From Tubulanus polymorphus (taxonomy: Eukaryota; Nemertea; Palaeonemertea; Tubulaniformes; Tubulanidae): 64,000 nucleotides of DNA. The notes under the pieces were generated by a model that made no database searches, was not told the DNA's origin, and saw only the letters and a list, made by a program, of their open reading frames with translations. The position numbers and the translations under genes were made by a program. Position 1 is the first letter of the stretch, and each line of letters opens with the position of its first letter. Below, one piece after another: positions 24,701 through 64,000 of this stretch. The DNA is taken from the NCBI RefSeq assembly GCF_964204645.1, contig NC_134027.1, forward strand, positions 18,650,485 to 18,714,484. Direction: 5' to 3'.

Positions 24701-27700
24701 TATTTTGAAATTTAAAAAAAGTGTCAGTTACCCTTTAATTATAATTCAGTTACCCTTATGAAGTCCATACTCAGAGGCGGGCTGAAAATATTTTCCGGTT
24801 AAATGGTTGAATTATGTATTGAAATATAATGATAAAATCTTCAACATTAAAACCCAAAGTATGTAACTAGGTATTGTCACCCTGATATGGTTGTAGGTAA
24901 AAATCCCTAGGTAAGTATCCCCTGGGTAAAAATCCCCTAGGTAAGAATCCTCAAATATTCAAAGCAGGTAAAAATCCCCACTTGGTGATTTTCAAGAAAA
25001 TTTCAAAGCAAAATGTTTCTCCAATTTTATTCATTTGCAATGAGACTGAAATATGTTTGAACTGCGCAGTGAAATCCTTCATTGGGATACACTACATTCT
25101 GAAGGAGGGGGATTTTTACGTACTTAGAAGAATCGGGGATTTTCACCAAGGGGATTTTTACCTTGGGGATTGTTACCTAGGGGATTTTGACTGACTGACT
25201 GACTGACTGACTGACTGACTGACTGACTGACTGACTGACTGACTGACTGACTGACTGACTGACTGACTGACTGACTGACTGACTGACTGATGCGTTACTT
25301 CCCGTCGCTGACCCACTGTCACACATTTTATAATCATATATATCTACAATACTGTAACAAGATTTTCGTAATATTCTAAATCTCTTACGACATGAAAACC
25401 TTAATTATAATTAAAATTATAATAATATTATGATATTACTCAATGTCAATAGGTGTTAGTTTGAAAGTCCTGATGTCTACAACTTGTCTGACACTTATTT
25501 CTCACTTCATACTCATTATTCAGTATATAAAGAGGAGTATGTAAAAATACAGCTGCGATAACGGGTTTTCTGCACAGCCTTGTTCGTATTCTTGATGTAG
25601 TCTGGAAAATGTGTCAGCCACGAATGCGTGTATGCTGATGCAGCCCCACTATGCTATGAAAATGATGGGAATTTAGAATCCTGTTCAACGGTCAACACGG
25701 TTTTATAAAAGGAAGGTCTACAAAAAGTCATTTGGGCTTACTTGAAACCATGGATGATTGGACTAGATGGTAATTTAACTCTGGAAATTGATTTTTAGGC
25801 CTTAATAAGCTGAAATGGATTTCAAAAAAGCATTTGATAAGGTACTACATCAGCGATTACTAAACAAGCTATGAGAAATGGTATCAATGATCTTGGGTCG
25901 CTTAAATGGTTCAGCAGTTTTCTCCGAACGAAAAAAGGTGGCCGAAATCAGTGAATTTCCAAAACGACCTTAACAAGCTGTGTTCCATACATGGTCAGAA
26001 ACATGGAAGATGAGCTTCAACAAAGAGGCTGTTCCGTTATTAAACGATGGGTTTGTTTGTTCACTTGCCTTGTGACTCGGTCAATACACCTCGAATTAGC
26101 AGATTCCCTCGAAACTGATAGTTTCATGCTAGTTTTTCGTAGTTATTTTAGTAGAGGTGGTATGCCTAGGGAATTGTATAGCGACAATGGAAGCAACTTC
26201 ATTGGTGCTGAAAGGGAATTTAATCCTGTCTTTCGGAATGGAAACAGTCAATTATTTCAAATTTCTAAGTGGAAAAAAGGCACGAAGTGGATTTTCATGC
26301 CTCCCAACGCGCATCATTTCAGCGGGGTATGGGAATGTAGTTAAGTCTGTTAAGAGAGCTTTGAAATCAGTACTTGGGGAGCAATGTGTTTATAAAACCA
26401 TATTACGCACTACCCTTATAGAGGTGGAGGGTGCTACCAACAGTAGACCCCTTACAAATAACAGTTCAGACCTGAATGATCCAACACCATTAACGCCTAA
26501 TCATTTTCTCCATGGTGGAGCATCTTCAATAGTCTCATTTGGTAAGTTTGAAAACAAAGAAATCAATAGCTGTAAAAGGTGGCGGCAGTGTCAGGTTCTA
26601 GCGGACCATGTGTGGAGGCAATGGATCGTTGAATACTTGCCTTCCCTCACTGTAAGAGGTAAGTGGACTGACGAAAACTCTTAACTTAATAAAGGATCAA
26701 TGGTCGAGTGGCTTGCCAAACTGGTTTGAAGTAAAAAAATCTGTCACGTAGGCTACCGGTATGCAAAAAAACATTTCATTAAAAATTAAACTTGAAAAAA
26801 TATATAAAAAAGGACTCATTTTTGGCCAGTGTGAACTTATAATGATAACTGACTTATAACGATAATGAAATCTTCGAATAATTGGTTATGGGCCTTTGTC
26901 TGAACAAATGTTCATAATTGTAATATATCCCTTGAATGATGTAAAACCACTAAAACTATGAGTGACCCAATAAGATACGGTACTAACTTGGTGAGAGCCT
27001 GGGTTTCATCGGGGGTTTTTTCATTTTCATCATACTGACCAATCAGGACAGAAGCTCCCTAGTTCTTCAAAATGAGGCCAGCCACGGACAAAACAAAGTT
27101 ATCGACTGACATGATTTTTGATAATTTCACGATAGGATTGCTTACATCTTCACTCAGACAAATCGTTATTACTACACCGTGGCGCGCGTACTCTATAACT
27201 GATACATACACGCAGTGAACACGAGAATATAAGTCTATATTGCTTACGCGACTGTACACGACTGTTTTCAACGCGAACGCTCAACTGTGCCGCAGTTAAC
27301 AAACTAATACAAATAATCAGGCTCCAAAACGGATTGCTAATGTGAACGTTAATAAAATGACTTCAATTTACGATGATAAAACAAGTAGTGTTCCAGTCGT
27401 GTATATATCAGACTCATCCCTAAAAATCCGCATTTTGAAACCACATTTTCGTCAGATATATTTGTGCAACGTTACGTTATGCATGGGATATCAAAACTAG
27501 ACGAATCTTTGAACACATCGCACACATTTAATCGTTACATCATACGCCTTGAGTATTCATGCTAGAAATGATGGATATCAACCTATTCAATCGTGCCACC
27601 ATTTTGTTTGTGAAATAACGCGCACCAGCTGATCTACCTCGTTCAATGTTATGACGTCATGATGGAAGTCAAAACCGGGTCAACACAAATTTTATAGAAG

Positions 27701-30700
27701 CAAGATTTCGAGGGGTTTCGTCTTCGAAAGCCCATAACTACCGAACAAAGCGGATCTTGGCGATATAAAGTTGTTATATCGCAAATAGCATTGAATTTTC
27801 ACATGTGTAATTTTGGACAGCTAAAGATGCTGCATAAAAAAACGTGCCCAATAAATCGAATTTTTGAAACTTTTTGGTAAATTTCTCAAAAAATATGAAA
27901 CCCACAGCTTTGCGCACCATAAAGAGAAAGCAATTACGAAATATATTTTTGCTTAATCCGTTCAATTCTGGATGTTTCCGGCCTGACGGTGCTTTTGTGA
28001 CGTTGATTCATCACAATACGCAAGGAGTATTTGTAGATCGAAGTGAGCTGAAGGATATCATATGGATTGTATCAGCAACAGCAGTAAGGTAACAAAGCCT
28101 ATGTTCTTTTAGTAAAAATAGCATGGAATAAAATAATAACAAGAGGCCCACGGGCCTTGTACCTTCATGACACAGTAGAAGAAGAATGATTCAGTATTCC
28201 AAGTTATACAGAATGATTTACATTGTAACGATGTATCAAGTTTTAGAATAGTTAAGAGGTATAGGCTATGTGGCGATAATGTTCATTTTCTGTTAATATA
28301 TCCTTACATGAAAAGACAAGCCCATTTTAGCTGCCCCAAAGATCACACTACATGAAACTAGAATGAGGCAAAGCCTCGAATGCCCCCGGCCTGAAATTTA
28401 CAGGCATATGTGAATTTACAGGGTTTGTCCCTGGGATTATTTCATAACGGGCTTCCTAGCCCCTATTGTCAACTGTAGCCTATAGAGGACAGATACCCAG
28501 ATGGGTTCTACCCCAAGTGATACCCTAGTTGTGTACCAAGTTTGAAAACAATCGGTCAACAACGGCCTCTAGACTGTTAACGTGGTTTTTCATGTCGGCC
28601 CCCTGGTGGCTAAAATTTAAATCGAATCGACCCAATTCTAAATAGGGTTCTACCTCAAGTAATACCCTATGTGTACTTAGTTTTAAAACAATCGGTCAAC
28701 AATTACGGCCTCTAGATTGTTAACGTTGTTTTTCATGTCAGCCTCCTGGTGGCTAAAATTTAAATCGAATCTACCCAATTCTAAATAGGGTTCTTCCCCA
28801 AGTGATATCCTACTTGTGTACCAAGTTTTAAAACAATCGGTCAACAATTGCGGCCTCTAGGCTGTTAACGTCGTTTTTCATGTCGGCCCCCGGCTGGCCA
28901 TAATTTAAATCGAATCGACCCAATTCTAAATAGAGTTCTAACCCAAGTGATATCCTACTTGTGTACCAAGTTTTAAAACAATCCATCAACAATTGCGGCG
29001 GCCTCTAGGCTGTTAACGTCGCTTTTCAAGTTGGCACCCCTGGTGGCCATAATTTAAATCGAATCGACCTAATTTTAAATAGGGTTCTGGCCCAAGTGAT
29101 ATCCTACTTGTGTACTAAGTTTTAAAACAATCGGACAACAATTGCGGCCTCTAGGCTGTTAACGTCGTTTTTCATGTCGGCCCCCTGGTGGCCATAATTT
29201 AAATCGAATCGACCCAATTTTAAATAGGGTGCTGGCCTAAGTGATATCCTACTTATGTACCAAATTTGAAAACAATCGGTCAACAATTACGGCCTCTAGA
29301 CTGTTAACGTCATTTTTATGCCGGGGCATAAAAATGCATCAAGAATTGGTGTAGGCATCGTGCTGAAAAGAAATCCAAGATGGATGGCAACCCTGGTGGC
29401 CATACTTAAACTCTATTTTCAATAAGGGGTAGACATTTCACCTACCAAAATTCTTACACCTAGTATCCTGAAAATGCATCAAGAATTGCAGGCCATTTCG
29501 TGCTAGAAATTCAAGATGGCTGACCTGGCGGCCATATTTGAAGGCCGATGACCTCCATATACAAAAGGCAAGGACAGCTTGACCCTGATCCTCACACCAA
29601 ATTTTGTGGAAATCAAGAATTGCGGGTTGCATCGTGCAAACAAGAAATTCAAGATGGCCACCCCAATGGCAGCCATATTTGATCACCAATGACATTTTTT
29701 TACAATAGGGGTGGACATCTCGCCAGACCCAATCTTCATGCTAATTTTCAAAAAGATTCATCGAAAATTACAGGCGAATTACTTTGTCGAATTCAATTCA
29801 ATTCCAGAGGCCTGCCTTAGGCTTATGTAATTGGAGTCAATTAAGATTCGACTTTTTGAAAAACCAGCACAGATGCCCATTCAAATCACATGTAATTAAA
29901 AAATTCAGTGCTATTAGTTTGATGTCCCTGTTTTCATCGCGCACGTGGTTAAAATTATTGTTTACATCGAACGTCTTCAACAACTAATACGACCGCACCC
30001 GCGTCTGTCAATCATCTTAATTGATTCATTTACTATGAAAAAAACTATGCAGTGGATCAATCCGGGATTTTTCAGTAGAATGTCAGACACTAGGTACCTT
30101 TCTTTAAAGGTTTATTTGTTGTATGTCATTAACAATCAGTTATATAATACTTTATTCATAAGTTTCAAGCGGCGCGCCGACAGCGAATGCTCAAGCAAGG
30201 TCAGTCACGTAGGCCAACGATAACACGAAACAGACCACGGTTTTGCCGATTAAGAGCGTCTCTCCACATAAACTAGAGGGACTGTTATGGACCATTTGTT
30301 GACACTAACCTTTTATAAGCTTCGTATGGATAAAATCAAGATAATTCCACCCTATAATTCCACTATTCCATGATCGACACGCAGCTTTAACATGGCGTCA
30401 ATACGCTAATCACGATGTATCTCACATCAAAATCACACTTGATTTACAAGTGTTGACTTATGAGAAACGATTGAAATCTAGCAAGTTGATTGGGAAAATA
30501 GCAGCACTATAGTTGAAAAAAGTTGATAAACCACCTCCGACTGTCTAATCATTTAAAAGCTTCGCCTTCACATGGAACTATTTCCGCCATATCACAGGTG
30601 CACTCTGCCGCCGTGATTCGCCCAATCAACGATAAAAACTTTCCCATGGTCTTACTATCGGCATTTTCTAATAATTTAGGGAAATATTTTTAAAAAGCGA

Positions 30701-52199: not shown

Positions 52200-53390
52200 A
52201 TCGTCAGGTGAGGTGTTATAGGTATCAGACAAACTACGAATCTGTTGTGCGTCGATTACAACAAAAATGAGACAGATATCTTAAGAGACAATGAAATGCC
52301 AGGCAAATTACTCGTCAGTCAAATTGGCTGACGAAGATTTCATACAAAAATGACCTTCCCATTCCTGACTGTGGTTTGTGAAAATATCCGATCGTGAAAC
52401 TAAACCACAGTCAGGTTACTGACTAGAAGATCGTATGGATTAACTAAACAACCGCAATATCCAAAAAATATAGAATGTTTTGCGCATTTAAAGCCCTCGA
52501 TCATCAAAATCGGTGAAGGATTTTGCGCGGAACTCAACGTTTTAAATTTCGAAAAATCGGCAAAAACCGGCGGCATAGCATTTTCGGTCCAGGCGATTTC
52601 GGCCGTAATTTCGCGTTCAAAGACATATAATTCACGAACTATTCATCGGAAGTTAACGGGATTGGTTTCGTTAGAAGCAGGAATCTATTAGCTTTCATAT
52701 CATGATCATTATCATGCCTGGATTATCAAAATCGGATGAGAAATAACAAAATAGTAAGCGACCGAAGTTGAGTTGTTTGTGAGCGTCGTTAGCCCCCTTG
52801 TTATTTACTATATACATTGGATTTTAATAACAGATTATCGTTTTTACATTACCTACAACTCTGATACGGGCCCCTATGGTCCTCCTGGCACTAAAAGTCT
52901 TCAACATGATGAAGTTGGCCAGTAAGCGGTCAGACTAGAATAATAAGATTATCAAAAAAGTACGGTACCTGCCATTCCAAATGTAATATTCTCATTCAGT
53001 GCTTCCTTCAAATCCTCAACAAACAACACTTGGTTTGAGCGTAAAATTCTTTATAATCGCGGTAATAATATCGAAGAACAAGGAATTTAGACTGGTTGCC
53101 TGTCCAATTCTAATTGACCGGTAACCAGTCTATAAGGAATAGACTGGTTGCCGGTCACTACCTTCAGTTAGAGACCGGTTGATCCACAGGCACTCGCCGA
53201 TGGGCTTGGGAAACAGTTGCTGGGGTTTTTGATAGTGTATTTGTGTTTTCACTCGTTATTCTGCAATAAACCCGAGAAAAATCCGTCTTGGTACATCTTC
53301 ACCCGTCAAGGCTGTGCCCCGAACCCCTTGACCTCACGAGTCGTTTGAGTCGTTACTAGCCGACCAGAATCCGGTTGTACACATCACAGC
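52200..53390. other. Left flank of the AT-rich element
   Basis: 53088-53190 has repeated and inverted AGACTGGTTGCC/GGTAACCAGTCT motifs (a small foldback). 53230-53340 has TTCTGCAATAAACCCGAG, resembling a retroelement polyadenylation region. No gene recognised. Confidence 0.4.
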
Positions 53391-53599
53391 GAGTAATTGG
53401 GAAAGTGGGCTTTCAGATCAGAGGTCGAAGGTCGAGACACCACTCATCACCACAAGTAATTTTTTCCCCTAATAGATGGGGGAAAATGAACAACATGAAG
53501 CCTAAATTCCCTATTACTCTTAATAATTTCATATAAACATATGAACATATGAACATTATTTACATGAATTTCATTTATTTTAAAATCATTTATATGTTA

Positions 53600-53730
53600 A
53601 TTACAAAAGTTACGAGTAATTAACGAGTTGATTAAAATTATATTTTTAAACATAAAAGTGACGAGTAATTAACGAGTTGATTAAAATTAGATTTTTAAAC
53701 ATAAAAGTGTGAGTAAAGTGTGAGTGAAAT
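53600..53730 (+). repeat. Left terminal modules of the AT-rich element
   Basis: Two tandem ~50-bp modules, each ACGAGTAATTAACGAG (53612-53627 and 53661-53676) plus TTGATTAAAATTA and TTTTTAAACATAAAAGT. They are followed by GTGTGAGTAAAGTGTGAGTG. All recur inverted at the other end. Position just upstream of the ORF suggests promoter or origin use, which is inference. Confidence 0.8.
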
Positions 53731-53788
53731 AAGTCATTTCATACTAGAACACGAGAGTACGAGACACAAGTATTTTTTTCTTATAAAA

Positions 53789-54412
53789 ATGAAGAACGAA
53801 GAACCCAACTTCAAAATCGAAATCAATGAACCCAATAAATCATTTTCACAGTTTAACATTAAAAATTATATTTCAGCAACAAATTTAGTGTCCGCAAGAC
53901 ATTATAAAATTGATAATATTACTGTAATTAATCAAATATTATTAAATGAAACATATTTAATTACTGAACTAATAGATACTTTAGATAATGGCGCCAAAAA
54001 TCCTAAAATATTTAATACAGTTTTAAATTATAAAGGTAATTTAGATGAAAACATAATAAATATTCTTAAGTGTCCTTTTAATGAAAGAGAAAGTGATATA
54101 ATACTTTCAAAAGGTAATGATAGGATAGACTTAAGAATTGAAAAACGACAATTATATTATTATAATTTTGATAATAAACAAATTATCTATAATGAAAATT
54201 CATCAAATATTGGAATTCAATGTGATTTAGATAATGAAAAATCAAATAAAGATGTTGCAGTTCAATGTAACTTAGATAATGAAATTGTTACGCCTAAATA
54301 TGAACCTAATGAAAAAGTGTTATGTGATTGTGGAAAATATTATACTCGAAGCAATAAATCCCACCATCTTAAATCAAAATATCATAACTCAAAATTAATA
54401 ATTCAAATCTAA
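53789..54412 (+). CDS. Zinc-finger-tailed protein of the AT-rich element, left copy
   Basis: ATG at 53789 follows CTTATAAAA and gives a 207-residue protein. A longer frame from a GTG at 53720 exists, but ATG is preferred in a eukaryote. The N-terminal ~130 residues are Asn/Ile/Lys-rich with no recognised fold. Then come two tandem acidic GIQCDLDNE/AVQCNLDNE motifs and a C-terminal CDCGKYYTRSNKSHHLKSKYH. The CxC...HxxxxxH arrangement resembles the short zinc-binding tails found in proteins of large DNA viruses and Polinton-like viruses (inference). The C-terminus is nearly identical to that of the right-arm ORF while the N-terminus differs. Codon use is extremely AT-rich. Confidence 0.7.
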   Translation: MKNEEPNFKIEINEPNKSFSQFNIKNYISATNLVSARHYKIDNITVINQILLNETYLITELIDTLDNGAKNPKIFNTVLNYKGNLDENIINILKCPFNERESDIILSKGNDRIDLRIEKRQLYYYNFDNKQIIYNENSSNIGIQCDLDNEKSNKDVAVQCNLDNEIVTPKYEPNEKVLCDCGKYYTRSNKSHHLKSKYHNSKLIIQI

Positions 54413-54438
54413 AAATAAAAACAAATAACATAAGAAAA

Positions 54439-54648
54439 GACTTAACAACATTAAAACATCATTTTGATTTTAGCAATTATCCCAAAGATCATGAACTATT
54501 TAGCAATGAAAATAAAAAGATTCCGGATTTAGAAAATAGTAAATCTTTTAAAGATATCGCAATTCAATGTGATTTAGAAAATGAATTCAAAAGATTTAAT
54601 CCTAATGAAAAAATTCATTGTTATTGCGGAGGTAAATTTGACAGTTGA
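54439..54648 (+). pseudogene. Second zinc-finger gene copy cut by the array, left arm
   Basis: An open frame reads LTTLKHHFDFSNYPKDHELFS then KDIAIQCDLENE and NPNEKIHCYCGGKF, parallel to the intact ORF's QCNLDNE...PNEKVLCDCGKY. It enters the 24-bp array within the zinc-finger sequence and stops. It is thus a tandem paralogue truncated by, or giving rise to, the array. No ATG start is visible. Confidence 0.65.
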
Positions 54649-57240
54649 AATGATAAATTGTTTGACAGTTAAAATGATAAATTGTTTGACAGTTGAAATG
54701 ATAGATTGTTTGACAGTTGAAATGATAAATTGTTTGACAGTTGAAATGATAAATTGTTCGACTGTTAAAATGATAAATTGTTTGACAGTTGAAATGATAA
54801 ATTGTTTGACAGCTGAAATGATAAATTGTTCGACTGTTAAAATGATAAATTGTTTGACAGATGAAATGATAAATTGTTTGACAGTTAAAATGATAAATTG
54901 TTTGACAGTTGAAATGATAAATTGTTTGACAGTTGAAATGATAAATTGTTTGAAAGTTGAAATGATAAATTGTTCGACTGTTGAAATGATTTGACAGTTG
55001 AAATGATAAATTGTTTGACAGTTGAAATGATAAATTGTTTGACAGTTGAAATGATAAATTGTTTGATTGTTGAAATGATAAATTGTTTGACAGTTGAAAT
55101 GATAAATTGTTTGACAGTTGAAATGATAAAGTGTTTGACAGTTGAAATGATAAGACAGCTGAAATGATAAATTGTTCGACTGGTAAAATGATAAATTGTT
55201 TGACAGTTGAAATGATAAATTGTTTGACAGTTGAAATGATAAATTGTTTGACAGTTGAAATGATAAATTGTTTGACAGTTGAAATGATAAATTGTTCGAC
55301 TGTTGAAATGATAAGACAGTTGAAATGATAAATTGCTTGACAGTTAAAATGCTAAATTGTTTGACAGTTGAAATGCTAAATTGTTTGACAGTTGAAATGA
55401 TAAATTGTTCGACTGTTAAAATGATAAATTGTTTGACAGATGAAATGATAAATTGTTTGACAGTTAAAATGATAAATTGTTTGACAGTTGAAATGATAAA
55501 TTGTTTGACAGTTGAAATGATAAATTGTTTGAAAGTTGAAATGATAAATTGTTCGACTGTTGAAATGATTTGACAGTTGAAATGATAAATTGTTTGACAG
55601 TTGAAATGATAAATTGTTTGACAGTTGAAATGATAAATTGTTTGATTGTTGAAATGATAAATTGTTTGACAGTTGAAATGATAAATTGTTTGACAGTTGA
55701 AATGATAAAGTGTTTGACAGTTGAAATGATAAGACAGCTGAAATGATAAATTGTTCGACTGGTAAAATGATAAATTGTTTGACAGTTGAAATGATAAATT
55801 GTTTGACAGTTGAAATGATAAATTGTTTGACAGTTGAAATGATAAATTGTTTGACAGTTGAAATGATAAATTGTTCGACTGTTGAAATGATAAGACAGTT
55901 GAAATGATAAATTGCTTGACAGTTAAAATGCTAAATTGTTTGACAGTTGAAATGCTAAATTGTTTGACAGTTGAAATGATAAATTGTACGACTGTTGAAA
56001 TGATAAATTGTTCGACTGTTGAAATGATAAATTGTTTGACAGTTGAAATGATAAATTGTTTGACAGTTAAAATGATAAATTGTTTGACAGTTGAAATGAT
56101 AAATTGTTCGACTGTGGAAATGATAAATTGTTTGACATTTGAAATGATAAATTGTTTGACAGCTGAAATGATAAATTGTTCGACTGTTGAATTGTTTGAC
56201 AGTTGAAATGATAAATTGTCCGACTGTTGAAATGATAAATTGTCCGACTGTTGAAATGATAATTTGTTTGACAGTTGAAATGATAAATTGTTCGACTGTT
56301 GAAATGATAAGACAGTTGAAATGATAAATTGTTTGACAGTTAAAATGCTAAATTGTTTGACAGTTGAAATGCTAAATTGTTTGACAGTTGAAATGCTAAA
56401 TTGTTTGACAGTTGAAATGATAAATTGTACGACTGTTGAAATGATAAATTGTTCGACTGTTGAAATGATAAATTGTTTGACAGTTGAAATGATAAATTGT
56501 TTGACAGTTAAAATGATAAATTGTTTGACAGTTGAAATGATAAATTGTTCGACTGTGGAAATGATAAATTGTTTGACATTTGAAATGATAAATTGTTTGA
56601 CAGCTGAAATGATAAATTGTTCGACTGTTGAATTGTTTGACAGTTGAAATGATAAATTGTCCGACTGTTGAAATGATAAATTGTCCGACTGTTGAAATGA
56701 TAATTTGTTTGACAGTTGAAATGATAAATTGTTCGACTGTTGAAATGATAAGACAGTTGAAATGATAAATTGTTTGACAGTTAAAATGCTAAATTGTTTG
56801 ACAGTTGAAATGCTAAATTGTTTGACAGTTGAAATGCTAAATTGTTTGACAGTTGAAATGATAAATTGTACGACTGTTGAAATGATAAATTGTTCGACTG
56901 TTGAAATGATAAATTGTTTGACAGTTGAAATGATAAATTGTTTGACAGTTAAAATGATAAATTGTTTGACAGTTGAAATGATAAATTGTTCGACTGTGGA
57001 AATGATAAATTGTTTGACATTTGAAATGATAAATTGTTTGACAGCTGAAATGATAAATTGTTCGACTGTTGAATTGTTTGACAGTTGAAATGATAAATTG
57101 TCCGACTGTTGAAATGATAAATTGTCCGACTGTTGAAATGATAAATTGTTTGACAGTTGAAATGATAAATTGTTCGACTGTTGAAATGATAAGACAGTTG
57201 AAATGATAAATTGTTTGACAGTTGAAATGATAAATTGTTT
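54638..57240 (+). repeat. Left 24-bp tandem array with higher-order repeats
   Basis: About 2.6 kb of 24-bp units, consensus ATGATAAATTG-TTTGACAGTTGAA, with a TCGACTGTT variant and occasional short units (ATAAGACAGTTGAA). Being 8 codons long, each unit reads MINCLTVE or MINCSTVE in one frame. Higher-order periods are visible: 579 bp (e.g. 54994 vs 55573, 55325 vs 55904) and 441 bp (56321 vs 56762), with the blocks essentially identical. There are no unique spacers. Confidence 0.97.
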
Positions 57241-57363
57241 AGCTGTAAATTTTATTGTTATTTGATTTAATCATTTAAAAGTTTAATATTTTAAAAATGA
57301 TTATAAAATATTTAATTAAAACAAGCAAATGTTTATAAATTTTCTAATTTCTTTCTTAAATAA

Positions 57364-57582
57364 ATGGATGGTTTCATTCCAACTGGGAAAAGTGATTTAA
57401 AACATTATTTAGTTGCTGGAGGTTTAATTTTAGCTGCGCTTTACTTTTATTATGAAAATATTTCAAAAGATTTAATAAATGAAAATAATAAATTAAGCAA
57501 GAAATTAAAGAATTTAAATACTAAAAATGGAAATACTCATAAAAACGGTAATAATCACAAGAAAGTTGTTGAATCAGATTAA
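57364..57582 (+). CDS. Small membrane-anchored coiled-coil protein
   Basis: 72 residues from ATG 57364. A short polar N-terminus precedes a predicted membrane segment around residues 16-30 (YLVAGGLILAALYFYY), then a Lys/Asn/Leu-rich heptad-like stretch (NENNKLSKKLKNL) and a hydrophilic tail. It lies in the unique centre of the AT-rich element. Small single-pass proteins are common in DNA viruses. Function unknown. Confidence 0.55.
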   Translation: MDGFIPTGKSDLKHYLVAGGLILAALYFYYENISKDLINENNKLSKKLKNLNTKNGNTHKNGNNHKKVVESD

Positions 57583-57673
57583 ATAGTGAATTAATCTATT
57601 AAAATCTTTTTCTAATTAAATGAGTTAAAATATATTAAATTTGTTAAATCTTATTTACAGAAATCAAGAGAAA

Positions 57674-57904
57674 ATGAAATTAATTATGATGATTTCAGGG
57701 TTACTTTCATTTTCAGTTTATGGTTTGAAACAATTGTTTCATTTTTATGATGATTGTAAAATAAAATATATTGAATTGAAAAATAATATCAATTGCATTT
57801 CAGATAGAATGAATAATATTAAAAGATGCGAAATTTGTAGTAAAAATACAAGACGGAAAAAGGATTTAGAAATCATAAAATTGGGCATAAATTGGAATGA
57901 TTAA
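57674..57904 (+). CDS. Small membrane protein with CxxC motif
   Basis: 76 residues from ATG 57674 (the upstream in-frame extension begins with TTG and is disregarded). The N-terminal hydrophobic segment MMISGLLSFSVYGLKQLF is followed by a polar helix-prone region and a CEIC motif next to a basic cluster (TRRKK). It is tandem with the preceding ORF, about 90 bp downstream on the same strand. No family recognised. Confidence 0.5.
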   Translation: MKLIMMISGLLSFSVYGLKQLFHFYDDCKIKYIELKNNINCISDRMNNIKRCEICSKNTRRKKDLEIIKLGINWND

Positions 57905-58004
57905 ATAACAAATTAAAGTAAAGAATTTAAAAAAAATCTCATTTATTGTGTAAAACTGAAATACTTTGAACTACGCCTAAAATTAAACTAAAATAGACAA
58001 CTTT

Positions 58005-58221
58005 GTTAATCTAATGAAATTTTAGTTATATTTTAGTTGAATTGTAACTAAAGTTAGTTGCAACTAACTTCAACTAGAATTTAACTAGAATTGAATAAAA
58101 ATTTAAAAAGATTAACAAGACAGTTGATTTAGTGTATTTTTAGTCAATTCTAGTTAAATTCTAGTTGAAGTTACTTTAATTAAATTCAACTAAAATATAA
58201 CTAAAATTTCATTAGATTAAC
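58005..58221. repeat. Central perfect inverted repeat (hairpin)
   Basis: 58005-58043 and 58183-58221 are perfect reverse complements over 39 bp. Nested inside, 58071-58094 and 58144-58167 are perfect over 24 bp, and AGTTAGTTGCAACTAACT at 58053-58070 is a self-palindrome. All arms are built from CTAGTT/AACTAG and TAGTTGAATT motifs. Cruciform-forming sequence at the centre of an inverted-repeat element could be an origin, a resolved terminus or a recombination junction. Confidence 0.9.
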
Positions 58222-58283
58222 AAAAATTTTTAAAACATTAAACTTTTAAATGATTAAATCAAATAACAATAAAATTTACAGCT

Positions 58284-59452
58284 AAACAATTTATCATTTC
58301 AACTGTCAAACAATTTATCATTTCAACTGTCGAACAATTTATCATTTCAACTGTCAAACAATTTATCATTTCAACTGTCAAACAATTTATCATTTCAACT
58401 GTCGAACAATTTATCATTTCAACTGTCAAACAATTTATCATTTCAACTGCCGAACAATTTATCATTTCAACTGCCGAACAATTTATCATTTCCACAGTCG
58501 AACAATTTATCATTTCAACTGCCGAACAATTTATTATTTCAACAGTCGAACAATTTATCATTTCAACTGCCGAACAATTTATTATTTCAACAGTCGAACA
58601 ATTTATCATTTCAACTGTCAAACAATTTATCATTTCAACTGTCAAACAATTTATCATTTCAACTGTCAAACAATTTATCATTTCAACTGTCAAACAATTT
58701 ATCATTTCAACTGTCAAACAATTTATCATTTCAACTGTCAAACAATTTATCATTTCAACTGCCGAACAATTTATCATTTCAACTGCCGAACAATTTATCA
58801 TTTCCACAGTCGAACAATTTATCATTTCAACTGCCGAACAATTTATTATTTCAACAGTCGAACAATTTATCATTTCAACTGCCGAACAATTTATTATTTC
58901 AACAGTCGAACAATTTATCATTTCAACTGTCAAACAATTTATCATTTCAACTGTCAAACAATTTATCATTTCAACTGTCAAACAATTTAACATTTCAACA
59001 GTCGAACAATTTATCATTTCAACTGTCAAACAATTTATCATTTCAACTGTTAAACAATTCATCATTTCAACTGTCAAACAATTTATCATTTCAACTGTCA
59101 AACAATTTATCATTTCAACTGTTAAACAATTTATCATTTCAACTGTCAAACAATTTATCATTTCAACTGTCAAACAATTTATCATTTCAACTGCCAAACA
59201 ATTTATCATTTCAACTGTCAAACAATTTATCATTTCAACTGCCAAACAATTTATCATTTCAACTGTCAAACAATTTATCATTTCAACTATCAAACAATTT
59301 ATCATTTTAACTGTCAAACAATTTATCATTTTAACTGTCAAACAATTTAACATTTCAACTGTGAAACAATTTAACATTTCAACTGTCAAACAATTTATCA
59401 TTTCAACTGTCAAACAATTTATCATTTCAACTGTCAAACAATTTATCATTTC
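58284..59452 (-). repeat. Right 24-bp tandem array
   Basis: About 49 units of the same 24-bp family in inverted orientation, with variants encoding MINCLTVE, MINCSTVE, MINCSAVE and IINCSAVE. The inner boundary (TTTAGCTGTAAATTTTATTG) is the mirror of the left array's inner boundary, and the identity continues outside into AATCATTTAAAAGTTTAAT. A 396-codon frame stays open across all units because none breaks the 24-bp register. Confidence 0.97.
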
Positions 59453-59530
59453 ATGCTAAACAATTCATGATCTTTAGGATAGTTACTGAAATCAAAATGA
59501 TGTTTTAATGTTTTTAAATCATCGGTTATG
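59448..59530 (-). pseudogene. Second zinc-finger gene copy cut by the array, right arm
   Basis: On the - strand DDLKTLKHHFDFSNYPKDHELFS is directly followed by an array unit (MK-stop). It is the same sequence as the left-arm pseudogene but truncated about 40 codons earlier, so the array has replaced more of the gene here. Confidence 0.65.
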
Positions 59531-59546
59531 TTATTAGTTTTTATCT

Positions 59547-60155
59547 TTAATATGTGTTATGATATTTTGATTTAAGATGGTGTGATTTATTGCTTCGAGT
59601 ATAATATTTTCCACAATTACATAAAACGCTTTCATTAGGATTATATTTAGGCGCAACAATTTCATTATCTAAATTACATTGAATTCCAACATCTTTATAT
59701 GATTTTTCATTTGGAATGTCAGGGATAAATCTCTTTTCTTGTAATCTGAAAAACATAACATAGCATTCTCTGAATGGGCAATAACGTAAGTGTAAAAATA
59801 ATGTTTTATGATTTAATAATGTACTTTCATCATTAAAAAGTGATTGCATTTTTTCTGTAATTATTAAATGTTTATCTATTCCATCAAATGTTGTGAATTT
59901 TGGAATTATTGTATTGAATAAGATTTTATCTTTATCATTCGATAACTCTATTATCAGATAGTGATTTTTAAACACTAATTCAGTAATATTTTTCACTTGA
60001 AAACGAAGACGCGCAGTTTTAATCAAATCTTTAATAGGAATGAAATTTTTAATTGTAAAATATTTTTCTAATTCATTTAAATCGATATCTTTGAACTGTA
60101 GTATCTGTTCATTCATATTTATAAGTAATTTTGTTATTAAAATTGATATTTTCAT
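59547..60155 (-). CDS. Zinc-finger-tailed protein of the AT-rich element, right copy
   Basis: ATG at 60155 directly follows AACGAGTTG of a terminal module and gives about 202 residues. The N-terminal two thirds (KDIDLNELEKYFTIKNFIP..., FHLRYCPFREC-like segment) are unlike the left copy in detail but similar in composition and layout. The C-terminal part (KDVGIQCNLDNE, PNESVLCNCGKYYTRSNKSH, LKSKYHN) is nearly identical. One rather than two QCNLDNE motifs is present. Divergent N-termini with a shared tail suggest different partners or N-terminal swapping (inference). Confidence 0.7.
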   Translation of the reverse strand: MKISILITKLLINMNEQILQFKDIDLNELEKYFTIKNFIPIKDLIKTARLRFQVKNITELVFKNHYLIIELSNDKDKILFNTIIPKFTTFDGIDKHLIITEKMQSLFNDESTLLNHKTLFLHLRYCPFRECYVMFFRLQEKRFIPDIPNEKSYKDVGIQCNLDNEIVAPKYNPNESVLCNCGKYYTRSNKSHHLKSKYHNTY

Positions 60156-60158
60156 CAA

Positions 60159-60480
60159 CTCGTTAATTACTCGTTACTTTTTATGTTAAAAAATAAGAAT
60201 TTAACGCACATAAATATAAATATTCACTGTTTTAAATATGAATTATCTCACTCGTTAATTACTCGTTACTTTTATACTGAAAATAAGAATTTAACACATA
60301 TAAATATAAATATTCAATTATTTAAATATGAATTATTTCACTCACACTTTACTCACACTTTTTATGTTTAAAAATCTAACTCATACAAATATTAATATTG
60401 AAATATGTTTAAAATATATCTAAATATCTATTTAAAAGAGCTCGTTAATTACTCGTTACTTTTTTACTCACACTTTAATA
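60159..60480 (-). repeat. Right terminal modules of the AT-rich element
   Basis: Three copies of CTCGTTAATTACTCGT (60159-60174, 60251-60266, 60441-60456), inverted relative to the left end. They are separated by TTTAAATATGAATTAT-type spacers, with CACTCACACTTTACTCACAC at about 60340 and a shorter copy at about 60465. There is one module more than on the left. Confidence 0.8.
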
Positions 60481-60520
60481 ACACTTTTATATTGAATAAT
60501 CTATCAATTTATATGTTATT

Positions 60521-60551
60521 CGCGGAGCGGAGCGGTAGCGAAGTGGAGCGA
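60521..60551. repeat. GC-rich GAGCGG tract inside the AT-rich element
   Basis: CGCGGAGCGGAGCGGTAGCG... is a 31-bp run of imperfect GGAGCG units, abruptly GC-rich in AT-rich DNA. A short frame over it (AERSGSEVERPIDLI) closes at 60602. It could be a protein-binding cluster or a gene remnant. Confidence 0.6.
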
Positions 60552-60733
60552 CCAATTGATTTAATACAATATGCTTTTAAAATTATTGATATCTTAGAAT
60601 AAATATTTAGTTTTAATATAAAATGCACACGGTTATGAAAATATATTATAGTTTTAAATTACTTTTAATGTTTTGTTTTTAATGAACTCGACCGTTCGAC
60701 CTTTGGCTTGAAACAACATATTCCCTATTACTG

Positions 60734-61740
60734 TAGCGAGAGCAGGTAAGTCCAGAATAGGTCCGCTACAGGTGGGTACGCCTAGGTCGATTCTGCTCCA
60801 GGAGAGGACAGAATAAGGGGTCAATGATCGCCCTAGGAAAATCGTCGAAAAATACTATGTGATTTGCTAACTCGTGAGATTCGATTCGGTTCCCCGCCTA
60901 AACATAACTCTGACCAGTGCAGTCGGTCGAATTTGCTCAAGAACCACAGCCGGAAGTCTACCACTTTCGTTACGTCGGCCATTCGTAATCGCATCGACTC
61001 TGACCGTAAATTCGAGAGAAATAGGCGATCGGTTCCTTCGACTATAAAATTCAAGTGCAGTCTGAATTTTATTCCGGTTTCCATAAGCTCTTATACTGAA
61101 TCCTACTGAATCTCGCGACAGTCATAGGCTAATAAGGCAATCGCATACTAGAATATCATGCTCGAATATATATATACTCCGAAAAATCGAACGCATAATC
61201 AAAAGAAGTAACAATTCATAGTTAAAAATGACATGTATGAATATCTATTGATTTATTCAGGTCGAGAGTCGTGGCGAAATGAACGGGCTATTTGGATTTG
61301 ACTAGGCCTCGGACCTCCGAGCGATCTCGGGTCGAGAGGCGACAAGGGCAAATATCCGACTTCGAGAGAAACCCGCGTTGTTAAGACAACGCAGATAAAC
61401 CGGGCCATGATTCGAGCGAATTCGCTCGAAGCTCAGGCGATGAGTCTTCGCGCGAGAAAAGGTATTGGGCTAATAATCGAGGCGGGTCCACTCGAAGTCG
61501 AATAAACGTTATTTATACGGAATAAAAGGCTATGATGTTCTTCCATTGCAGTGATCCTTGGTCAGATTCTCCTTTGATTTCGGGCTCAGACGAAGTATTC
61601 GAGCGGGAGCGGGGGCCGGAGTTGCGCAAATATATATATATTCTTCTACTCAAGTTTCTCGTTTTGGCTGAATTTATTGTGGGATTTCTCTCGTTATCAT
61701 CATACACGGATATTGTGTATCTTCTCTTCTCACCTGCTAG
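60734..61740. other. Right flank of the AT-rich element, GC-richer, no gene
   Basis: Composition jumps back to GC-rich at about 60733. Contains TCGAGCGAATTCGCTCGA (near 61412) and other CGA-rich motifs and several antisense frame pairs, none convincing. It probably belongs to the element whose 3' part carries the hammerhead-like motif below. Confidence 0.4.
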
Positions 61741-61924: not shown

Positions 61925-64000
61925 ATAAGGCTGATGTTTAGCAGTAATCCTGAAGCCATAAGTGTCGTTCTCTACATTCCAGTAGACACCCAATGCTCTT
62001 TCTGTTGGCAAACCAAAATCTAGACTCTTCAATTCTTTGCAAGATTTAGCAAGTTCTTCTTCAGGTAAACTTTCAATTACAGAACAAAGCCCCTTTCTTT
62101 ACACAGAGATATCAGCTTCATCACAAATTCTATATTTTTACCATCTTGTACACGAGACTTCAAACAGTCATCAACATAGAAGTTTTTCAAGACTGTATTA
62201 GTAACTTCTACTTCATACTTGTTAATGTTGTCAGTGGCTGTCCAGCGTAAAGCCCAGTTAGAACAACTCGGGGATGAAATTGCCCCAAATAAGTGAACTA
62301 ACGTACGGAAAGGTATGGCTTTCTTGTTCAAATCACCATCCGGCCACCATAAGAATCTCAAGCAGTCTTTTTCATCCGGCGCAACCTTTACTCTATAAAA
62401 CATAGATTCTATGTCTGCCACTATTGCTGTCCTTTCTTGTCTGAAGCGTATCAACACACCAACCAAAGAGTTAGTCAAATCAGGTCCTTGTAACAATTGA
62501 GAATTCAACAACACTCCACCATAAAGTGCAGGGCAACCGAAAACGACACGGTGATATACCCCGTGATGAGGTATATACCATATACGACCATTTTCCAAGC
62601 GCAAATCTTCAGGAACCTGTTCCGCATTAGCCTTTAGCCAATATATTGTCTATAAAGGCATTGTAGTCATGTCGAAACTTGTCATTTTTCAACAGCTTAT
62701 TTTTCAGATTTGACAGTCGTTTTTCAGCATGCCGAACATTATTGGGAAACTTCACATTCTTGTCCCGCCATGGCATTGGTAATTGGTACTGACCATTCAT
62801 TATTTTTACATTGGACTCCATCATCGTCATGAATTTACGATCTTCGACTGACCATTGTTTTTTATCTTCAGCAATTCGCCCAGGAAAGTCAAAATCTATA
62901 GCTTCCTGTACCAATTGATCAAGAGAACTCAACAGTGTCGGTAACTATGTCATCATCTTAATCGCCAGATCTAATCACATTCCCGGCGACCCTGCCTAGT
63001 CTGGTTCTGGAAGCATGCGGCGATCCAGCAGGGCCTGTCCGTGATTCGAATGGTGTGTATGCATCCGCAATATTATTGCCAACCAATTTCTGCATCTATC
63101 TGAGGCAATTTAACATCACTCACGTGCGACCATTTACGGATGTCGTCTTCTGTTGGTACATGCAGTAGTGAAACTGGCATCTGCTCTGTAGTATAAACAG
63201 AAGGCATGAAAACTACGTCTTCAGTTTCCAAACCTCTGACTTCTAAACAATGAACAATCTGCGTATCAAGCATTGCAGACCTCACCATGGTGTCGAGATT
63301 CAATCTCACTTTCTTGCCAATACCACCGATCTGCTTCAACAGCGATGAAGTACAAAAAGAAATACTACTTCCAGGATCAAGGAAGGCGAAAGTTATCACT
63401 TCTGGAATTCTTCCCTTCACTTTCACTCTAACTGGAAGTATAGCCATAGTACATAATCCATCTGTCTTCCTTTCACCATCATTTATGACGCCACAGGGAA
63501 TTCCATCTTTCACATCTGATATCGTGTTCTGATTCTGATCTCTTCGTGTCATAATTGTTGGGTTTTCAGGAAGTGACCTAGAATCATCATGCAGTACACT
63601 CGGATGTAACTGTTTACATATATCGCAGTTCATCTTCAATCTACAAATTTCTATTCTGATGTCCAGACCAGAGACAACCCCAACAGAGGCCTTTTCTTTT
63701 AAGAAAAGATATTTTTTCTTCAAAGGCAACATTAGACAGGTCTTTACAATTATTCAACACATGATCGCCAGTACAGTATACACATGGTTTCTTCAATGCG
63801 AGATTAGAGTTTTGTTGATTCGTAACAGAAATGCTCCCCGTCTGAGCAGCAACAGTATTTCGGCTACCTTGCGATATTCGCAGAGACTTTTTGTCTTTTT
63901 TCTGATCTAAAGCAGCAGCCATCATATCTTTGCCAAAAATGGGGTCGTTCACCTTTTTTGACTCCTTCCGTACAAAACTCACCAAGGTGTTCACATTTAT
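61925..64000 (-). pseudogene. BEL/Pao LTR retrotransposon, gag-protease-RT, broken, runs off right edge
   Basis: In - strand order: a gag zinc knuckle CVYCTGDHVLNNC (near 63770) and a second Cys/His cluster ending MNCDICKQLHPSVLH; an aspartic protease core FLDPGSSISFC (near 63370); a connector with QLPMPWR (62627-62932); RT segments IWYIPHHGVYH, LLQGPDLTNSLVGVL, RFRQERTAIVADIESMF and LRFLWWPDGD, then NFYVDDCL (YVDD active site); and finally TERALGVYWNVENDTYGF. The order and motifs are those of BEL/Pao. Frameshifts lie near 63700, 62630 and 62085, and a short deletion after GVYH removes residues before VVF. RNase H and integrase are missing: the sequence diverges at 61925. Confidence 0.9.

Follow-up and report, generated by a model that had tools for sequence, protein, structure and literature searches.

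The window analyzed here, a stretch of 64,000 nucleotides from the nemertean Tubulanus polymorphus (contig NC_134027.1, positions 18,650,485 to 18,714,484), contains a 7.3-kb AT-rich block that we read, with a probability of roughly 0.85, as a chimeric, probably immobile copy of a non-autonomous Polinton (Maverick) family whose elements would behave as satellites of Polintons. The reading draws on directly observed ends, target-site duplications, terminal hairpins, gene content and low ratios of nonsynonymous to synonymous substitution (dN/dS). A first-pass annotation had delimited the block at 53391..60733, which holds to within one or two bases: the element starts with AGTAAT at 53392 and closes with the reverse complement of that motif, ending at 60732. 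The same annotation could not place the block in one described transposon class, a caution that is not sustained, as the ends and duplications are those of a Polinton derivative; of the readings that it offered, the best supported is that of a Polinton-like virus in satellite form, given the related termini, the 6-bp duplications, the presence of a Polinton terminal gene and the pieces of Polinton DNA polymerase (PolB). Each arm, from the outside inward, consists of a terminus, subterminal repeats, a zinc-finger (ZF) gene, a PolB fragment and a 24-bp array, and the centre holds two small genes in one orientation, here called S1 and S2, together with an AT-rich palindrome (Table 1). The inverted arrays, the two small central open reading frames (ORFs) and the distinct composition (GC content of 0.22-0.30 inside versus mostly 0.33-0.41 outside) are all present as first described.

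Polintons with 6-bp duplications and AGT/ACT ends are already known: excerpts of the published accounts give (AGT)2//(ACT)2 ends and 6-bp duplications for vertebrate Mavericks (PMC8097293) and define Polintons by a protein-primed PolB (pPolB), an rve integrase (rve-INT) and an A32 ATPase (PMC12747079). The present family shares with them AGT...ACT ends, 6-bp target-site duplications and inverted repeats. Across the searched genome (268 Mb, 77 contigs), sister elements start AGTAATAGGG...GGTCGAG and are bounded by duplications that are exact in six of the seven loci compared (L009, L013, L014, L015, L016 and L023, with ttcatc, cacata, actgcc, gattct, ctcggt and attatt), and again in L012 (cacgca) and L026 (ggcgcc); the seventh locus, L017, is without an AGTAAT end. 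The terminus pattern AGTAATAGGG...AAAGGTCGA...GTCGAG occurs 551 times per strand, or 1102 times in total, against 0 for a reversed control, and ten pairs of termini were hand-picked from the listed hits because their spacing resembled one element: an exact 6-bp duplication flanks nine of them, and in the tenth five of six bases agree. On contig C1 (32 Mb), all but one of the listed termini fall within 12.3-19.9 Mb, a mid-chromosome cluster, and a 2.2-kb element at C1:14106088-14108281 (L058/L059) has the same terminus and an exact 6-bp duplication, with no hairpin.

Compared with Polintons in these features, the family has the terminal inverted repeats with AG../..CT ends and the 6-bp duplication (in 6/7 loci and 9/10 pairs), and the window element holds fragments of PolB and a PolB-like start in place of a protein-primed PolB; it is thus a non-autonomous derivative, not an autonomous Polinton. 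A tblastn search of the window with 15 proteins of a complete Polinton found no integrase, ATPase or capsid gene, and four element ORFs compared with Pfam gave no integrase, ATPase, capsid or transposase match. Unlike a Polinton, then, the window element is without polymerase, integrase, ATPase and capsid genes, carries ZF genes in long arms and belongs to a family in which many ends are hairpins. Taken together, the related ends and the Polinton-type left terminus indicate that the element derives from a Polinton (Maverick), is non-autonomous and bears genes in its inverted arms.

Foldback elements have long inverted arms, a 9-bp duplication and a MULE-type (Mutator-like element) transposase. 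The long inverted arms of short tandem repeats recall them, as does the lack of a mobility enzyme in the window copy; unlike them, the family has ends of Polinton type and three small genes that seem constrained. An origin from a Foldback-type element, or from another cut-and-paste transposon without kinship to Polintons, is very improbable, the termini being related to those of an element encoding PolB and integrase. The Foldback class was rejected on the 6-bp duplications and the lack of a transposase match in the four ORFs scanned.

The complete Polinton used for comparison lies on C1 (L039:1097 to L037:7682), measures approximately 16.6 kb, and has 124-bp inverted ends that are 99% alike and a target duplication AAAGCG; it is inserted within the ZF gene of a ZF element. 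It encodes a PolB with an open frame and a recognizable core (PF03175, E 1.9e-19; a separate scan of the whole 1687-aa frame gave no PF03175 match), an integrase (rve, E 4.1e-10, with a chromodomain below cut-off) whose named relatives include a nemertean protein and a fish protein, an ATPase (Pox_A32, E 3.3e-13) and a weakly matched, below-cut-off capsid (Capsid_N, E 0.0017). Between YFDS and TDA, a site that we take to resemble the catalytic motif, its PolB (L037:2503-7566, minus strand) carries an insert resembling an intein, with an above-cut-off match to LAGLIDADG_3 (E 9.2e-6) and a below-cut-off one to Intein_splicing (E 6.8e-7); 12 PolB rows, this one included, have frames of 1686-1690 aa, and the insert may be widespread. 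ATPase copies of the C1 lineage number 1493 candidates, the best 150 of which are all at least 95% identical. A second Polinton end, L022, has an ATPase, an integrase (56% identical), two further shared genes, a presumably HNH-like ORF and, outermost of all, next to the terminus, a ZF gene of 277 aa. This position identifies ZF as a Polinton terminal gene that has lost approximately 90 N-terminal residues in the short elements, and upstream of ZF in L011 a broken remnant of the missing residues can be made out by eye.

The three genes recur throughout the genome. The right-hand ZF protein has at least 155 matches (the best 150 of 514 candidates scored), and S1 and S2 have 338 and 381 candidates (the best 150 of each scored), all of these counts being lower bounds; of the 150 listed S1 copies, 107 have S2 downstream in the same orientation. 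Strong matches of all ORFs to a known transposon family, which the first-pass annotation had held would speak against its reading, did not occur, none being found for ZF, S1 or S2. For ZF, 38 candidates among 5.8 billion proteins included none at E 0.001 in a search that requires shared words, and Protein Data Bank (PDB) profiles returned just two chance-level Csm4 sequences (E 0.35-0.39). Pfam matches of the three proteins all fell below cut-off (for S1, DUF5057 at E 0.0019; for S2, C2H2 fingers at E 0.0012), and no relatives of ZF, S2, the ATPase or the integrase were found in a set of viral contigs that may omit the host genome and near kin. This last result is what bears on the adintovirus reading that the first-pass annotation also offered. 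An AlphaFold2 model of ZF from two rows was unusable, with a mean predicted local distance difference test (pLDDT) score of 34. Against the proteins of the C1 Polinton (blastp), S1 resembles none, and S2 and ZF give short, weak matches, the best being that of ZF to a 439-aa zinc-finger protein (E 0.004).

By pairwise NG86 comparison, median dN/dS is 0.11 for S1 (30 pairs with dS 0.05-0.8, some rows having just 41-51 residues) and 0.29 for S2 (42 pairs); for ZF it is 0.66 over 152 pairs that are mostly comparisons of the L type with the R type, and mostly 0.3-0.6 within a type (range 0.23 to 1.80, the top value coming from very few changes). The pairs share ancestry and are not independent, and on these sequence comparisons S1, S2 and ZF look constrained. 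This pattern bears on an account that disputes the satellite part of our reading alone and otherwise overlaps with it, namely that the block is an ordinary decaying deletion derivative of a Polinton, its genes being relics with nothing satellite-like about them. PolB fragments and truncated genes are indeed present, many listed ZF copies are partial or contain stops, and short ZF forms lack the N-terminal fingers; yet the low dN/dS of S1, the 131 of 150 listed S1 matches that are free of stops and the frequent linkage of S1 to S2 weigh against it, and we regard simple decay as unlikely.

A further account, likewise confined to the satellite part and overlapping with our reading elsewhere, would make S1, S2 and ZF normal genes of another autonomous Polinton lineage, in which the constraint acts, and the palindromes its snap-back defective forms. 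The terminal ZF gene of L022 accords with it, as does the fact that the complete Polintons examined number one. Against this, S1 and S2 are absent from the C1 Polinton outside the surrounding ZF element and from the part of L022 that was read, and, of the 150 listed S1 copies, six have any of 55 ATPase copies as a neighbour at up to 20 kb, a weak indication that covers one lineage and 55 of the 150 ATPase copies listed of 1493 candidates. We consider such a lineage possible, at about one chance in three.

The arms of the fetched two-armed relatives are mostly 93-99.5% alike, and in some cases only 82-91%. In trees of the ZF genes, the arms of one element are sisters in eight of the 11 loci with an inverted pair (L012, L013, L014, L016, L017, L023, L028 and the C1 element), a count that excludes L019 and L020, where two ZF copies share an orientation, as well as the window, whose arms differ in type. 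Homogenized arms of this kind fit the re-copying of one arm from the other in each round, and gene conversion in the chromosome may also produce the likeness. Among the listed matches, opposite-strand pairs closer than 8 kb are convergent rather than divergent at 23:0 for S1, 16:0 for S2 and 25:2 for ZF (rows as listed, so that broken copies and neighbours may count more than once). The nearly constant convergence agrees with the earlier suggestion of a collapsed head-to-head dimer. That suggestion seems to hold only in part, for the S1-S2 centre is single-copy in L009, L016 and the window, and the elements look linear, with giant inverted arms, instead of being complete dimers. Assembly is difficult across palindromes and tandem arrays, and an inverted duplication from misjoined reads could in principle imitate such a structure. 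Misassembly was rejected, and is barely credible, in light of several separate loci with different flanks, exact duplications and arms that differ from one another. A palindrome at L017:862-9183 has arms that are 96% alike and outer borders that are not AGTAAT ends; two PolB pieces lie at its left edge only.

Two further components recur among the elements. The modal 24-bp unit, TTTGACAGTTGAAATGATAAATTG, is identical in the window arrays and in L009, L011, L012, L013, L017 and L023, with shorter 24-bp arrays in L014 and L024 and no units in L016, L018, L022 or the C1 Polinton; units were gathered at up to five mismatches to the modal unit, which biases toward it, and an independent tandem-repeat run agrees on the unit for L014, L024 and the window. 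A 32-mer of the array has 914+733 exact hits in the genome and 0 for the reversed control. Likewise, a PolB piece of 28-68 residues, starting at approximately residue 1540, lies directly 3' of ZF in both ZF types (L001-L017, L023, L024 and the window) and was not found in L018-L022, L025-L028 or L038. The idea that PolB fragments in inverted arms might give rise to hairpin RNA and so silence Polintons was set aside as speculative.

The window copy itself departs from this pattern in being composite. The first description of an inward-facing pair of paralogous ZF genes is correct in that both proteins end CxCGKYYTRSNKSHHLKSKYH; they are not close copies, however: full-length identity is 40-46%, most of it falling in the C-terminal part, and the copy is accordingly a chimera. 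Its left gene is of L type and its right gene of R type, and its two ends, inverted as they are, belong to two types, the left one being a PolB-side Polinton terminus followed by an apparent inner half of a ZF-type hairpin. Recombination of L-type and R-type elements, with gain of a PolB-side Polinton end at the left, would account for the arrangement, and the copy is likely an old recombinant that is no longer mobile.

Several observations weigh against the satellite interpretation or its details. The flanks of the window element agree at just four of six bases, and L017, the nearest relative of the left arm, lacks an AGTAAT end at its palindrome border. The arms are not sisters in L009, L021 and L027 (L009 ties with the right arm of the window), and the pairing of the arms in L017 is supported at only 0.596. 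Just 30 of the 150 listed S1 copies are preceded, at no more than 4.5 kb, by a listed ZF, and 49 of the 150 listed ZF copies are followed by S1 or S2; many family members may therefore be without the whole gene set, or have a partner outside the matches listed. Four or more 24-bp units occur in eight of 23 ten-kb loci. Lastly, S1 and S2 were not found in the C1 Polinton, the one complete Polinton examined.

Many termini of the family are hairpins. A motif search found the outer terminus with an inverted inner copy 100-400 bp inward in 11 fetched 10-kb loci, and no terminal hairpin in L009, L010, L016, L024, L026, the ZF element of L023, the C1 Polinton or the window. Across 15 hairpin ends, some of them the two ends of one element, mean identity is 0.905 between an outer copy and its own inner copy and 0.811 between outer and inner copies across loci, and the best-matching inner copy is that of the same end or its partner in ten. 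Ten hairpins of approximately 150-210 bp, chosen one per element, were aligned over 66 pairs and compared with 500 shuffles: 99.4% of cells are paired (88.1 when shuffled), 20 pairs have changed on both sides (15.0 when shuffled) and the covariation score is 0.313 (0.130 when shuffled; at most 0.085 for slid versions), none of which was reached by any shuffle, and further pair types were matched by eight. In eight terminus pairs with a spacing of 16-23 kb, seven of the 16 ends likewise have a whole hairpin (L044/45, L048/49, L052/53 and L054), and the other nine show only a 38-45-bp inverted stretch that reaches the edge of the fetched piece; hairpins occur as well in a 5.3-kb pair (L056/57) and at the gene-bearing Polinton ends L022 and L023 (the ATPase and orf108 side). 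In L018, a 2.7-kb unit made up of a ZF gene and then an HNH-like ORF (long in the first copy only) is present as three tandem copies, each with a 152-bp terminal hairpin.

Differences between the halves are lopsided. From outer to inner copy, 57 C to T changes stand against 0 T to C, and 14 A to G against 4 G to A; in a second set the counts are, in the same order, 48 against 3 and 16 against 0. G.T pairs are consequently kept in the strand whose 3' end is terminal, and this strand is predicted to fold better in all 17 hairpins from 11 elements (for L052, -74 versus -65 kcal/mol), although the asymmetry goes back to perhaps six positions of common descent and is not independent evidence each time. 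Covariation could also arise from copying one half off the other instead of from selection; the fixed C/T differences between the halves argue against wholesale re-copying. We tentatively propose, as an idea still unlikely on present evidence, that a Polinton lineage has hairpin telomeres in common with its small satellites, which bear genes: compensatory change would preserve pairing in terminal palindromes of 100-400 bp, and the G.T pairs in them would make the 3'-ended strand the one that folds more readily. Such ends might let linear DNA prime or close itself as parvovirus and poxvirus ends do, instead of or besides protein priming, and might explain the recurrence of inverted-arm satellites.

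Under the satellite interpretation, a Polinton integrase would likely recognize the AGTAAT...GGTCGAG end, the ends being related, and insert the element in trans. Polinton polymerase would copy the linear element, and panhandle or fold-back copying in each round would keep the long inverted arms alike. The 24-bp unit accompanies ZF genes of either type, and what the two types have in common is mainly the C-terminal finger; hence we guess that this finger binds the repeats as an iteron-like array; by similar guesses, S1 and S2 might be membrane-associated helpers of replication or packaging, and the hairpins might prime or close the ends.

Table 1. Features of the element and its immediate flanks (positions in the window)
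Feature	Position	Strand	Remarks
Left flank, acagcg	53386..53391	+	four of six bases same as right flank; possible decayed 6-bp duplication
Whole element	53392..60732	.	outermost AGTAAT to outermost ATTACT
Left end, terminus of PolB-bearing Polinton type	53392..53500	+	aligned to L037/L039 up to 53495, ~91% identity
PolB-like start, ATGGGGGAAAATGAACA	within 53392..53500	+	start codon judged by eye
Remnant, inner half of ZF-type terminal hairpin (ATTCCCTATTACT, then CTTAA)	53503..53515	-	by eye
Subterminal repeats, 49-bp period	53605..53716	+	
ZF gene, L type, 207 aa	53789..54412	+	
PolB coding fragment, residues 1542-1580	54409..54525	+	90% aa identity; frame differs from ZF
24-bp array, 112 copies of TTTGACAGTTGAAATGATAAATTG	54637..57240	+	
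S1, 72 aa	57364..57582	+	by eye, a single hydrophobic span; dN/dS low among elements
S2, 76 aa counted from ATG	57674..57904	+	relatives ~104 aa with C2H2-like tail below Pfam cut-offs
Central palindromic AT-rich stretch	58003..58223	.	71-74% alike L039:2662-2833, intergenic beside C1 Polinton ATPase gene; low-complexity, hence weak evidence
24-bp array, 49 copies, inverted	58284..59453	-	
PolB fragment, residues 1540-1573	59455..59556	-	91% aa identity
ZF gene, R type, 189 aa	59547..60116	-	
Subterminal repeats, 90 bp	60158..60365	-	
Right terminus, ZF type	60687..60732	-	by eye; terminal hairpin reduced to outer half
Right flank, gtagcg	60733..60738	+	

As its relatives are longer, S2 appears to have an altered C-terminus in the window copy. 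Elsewhere in the window, retroelement-like frames were noted by eye at 62077-63753 and 25955-26684, the former with a below-cut-off RVT_1 match in Pfam (62077-62649, E 0.018), and an array with a 145-bp unit (5.7 copies) occupies 28503-29324; Rfam and tRNA scans found nothing.

Virophages and other satellite viruses may work alike, with a small gene set and end signals like those of the presumed helper; unlike them, the element has no capsid gene and is known from sequence, not from particles. Parvovirus hairpin telomeres are similar, in that they too are terminal palindromes with a 3' end that can fold, but no Rep/NS1 gene was recognized in the element, and the fixed differences kept between outer and inner halves leave no parvovirus-like flip-flop apparent. 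In the excerpts consulted, terminal hairpins are mentioned for giant viruses (PMC12747079), and bidnaviruses, which acquired PolB from Polintons, are reported without them (PMC4061559). Hairpin ends of Polintons are not described in the excerpts of PMC6431247, PMC4028283, PMC8097293, PMC12220804, PMC12747079, PMC6723459, PMC4061559 and PMC5718144, and neither such ends nor a gene-bearing Polinton satellite family was found in the portions of the literature compared, Repbase and Dfam lying outside that comparison.

As a practical matter, annotators should bear in mind that an AT-rich block with a long inverted pair of genes can derive from a Polinton. Polintons are thought to replicate by protein priming, and to our knowledge the copying of their ends has been little tested; covarying hairpin ends offer a direct handle on this process. 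Finally, a satellite family with constrained genes of its own would, if true, mean that Polintons can host parasites within a eukaryote genome, much as giant viruses do with virophages.

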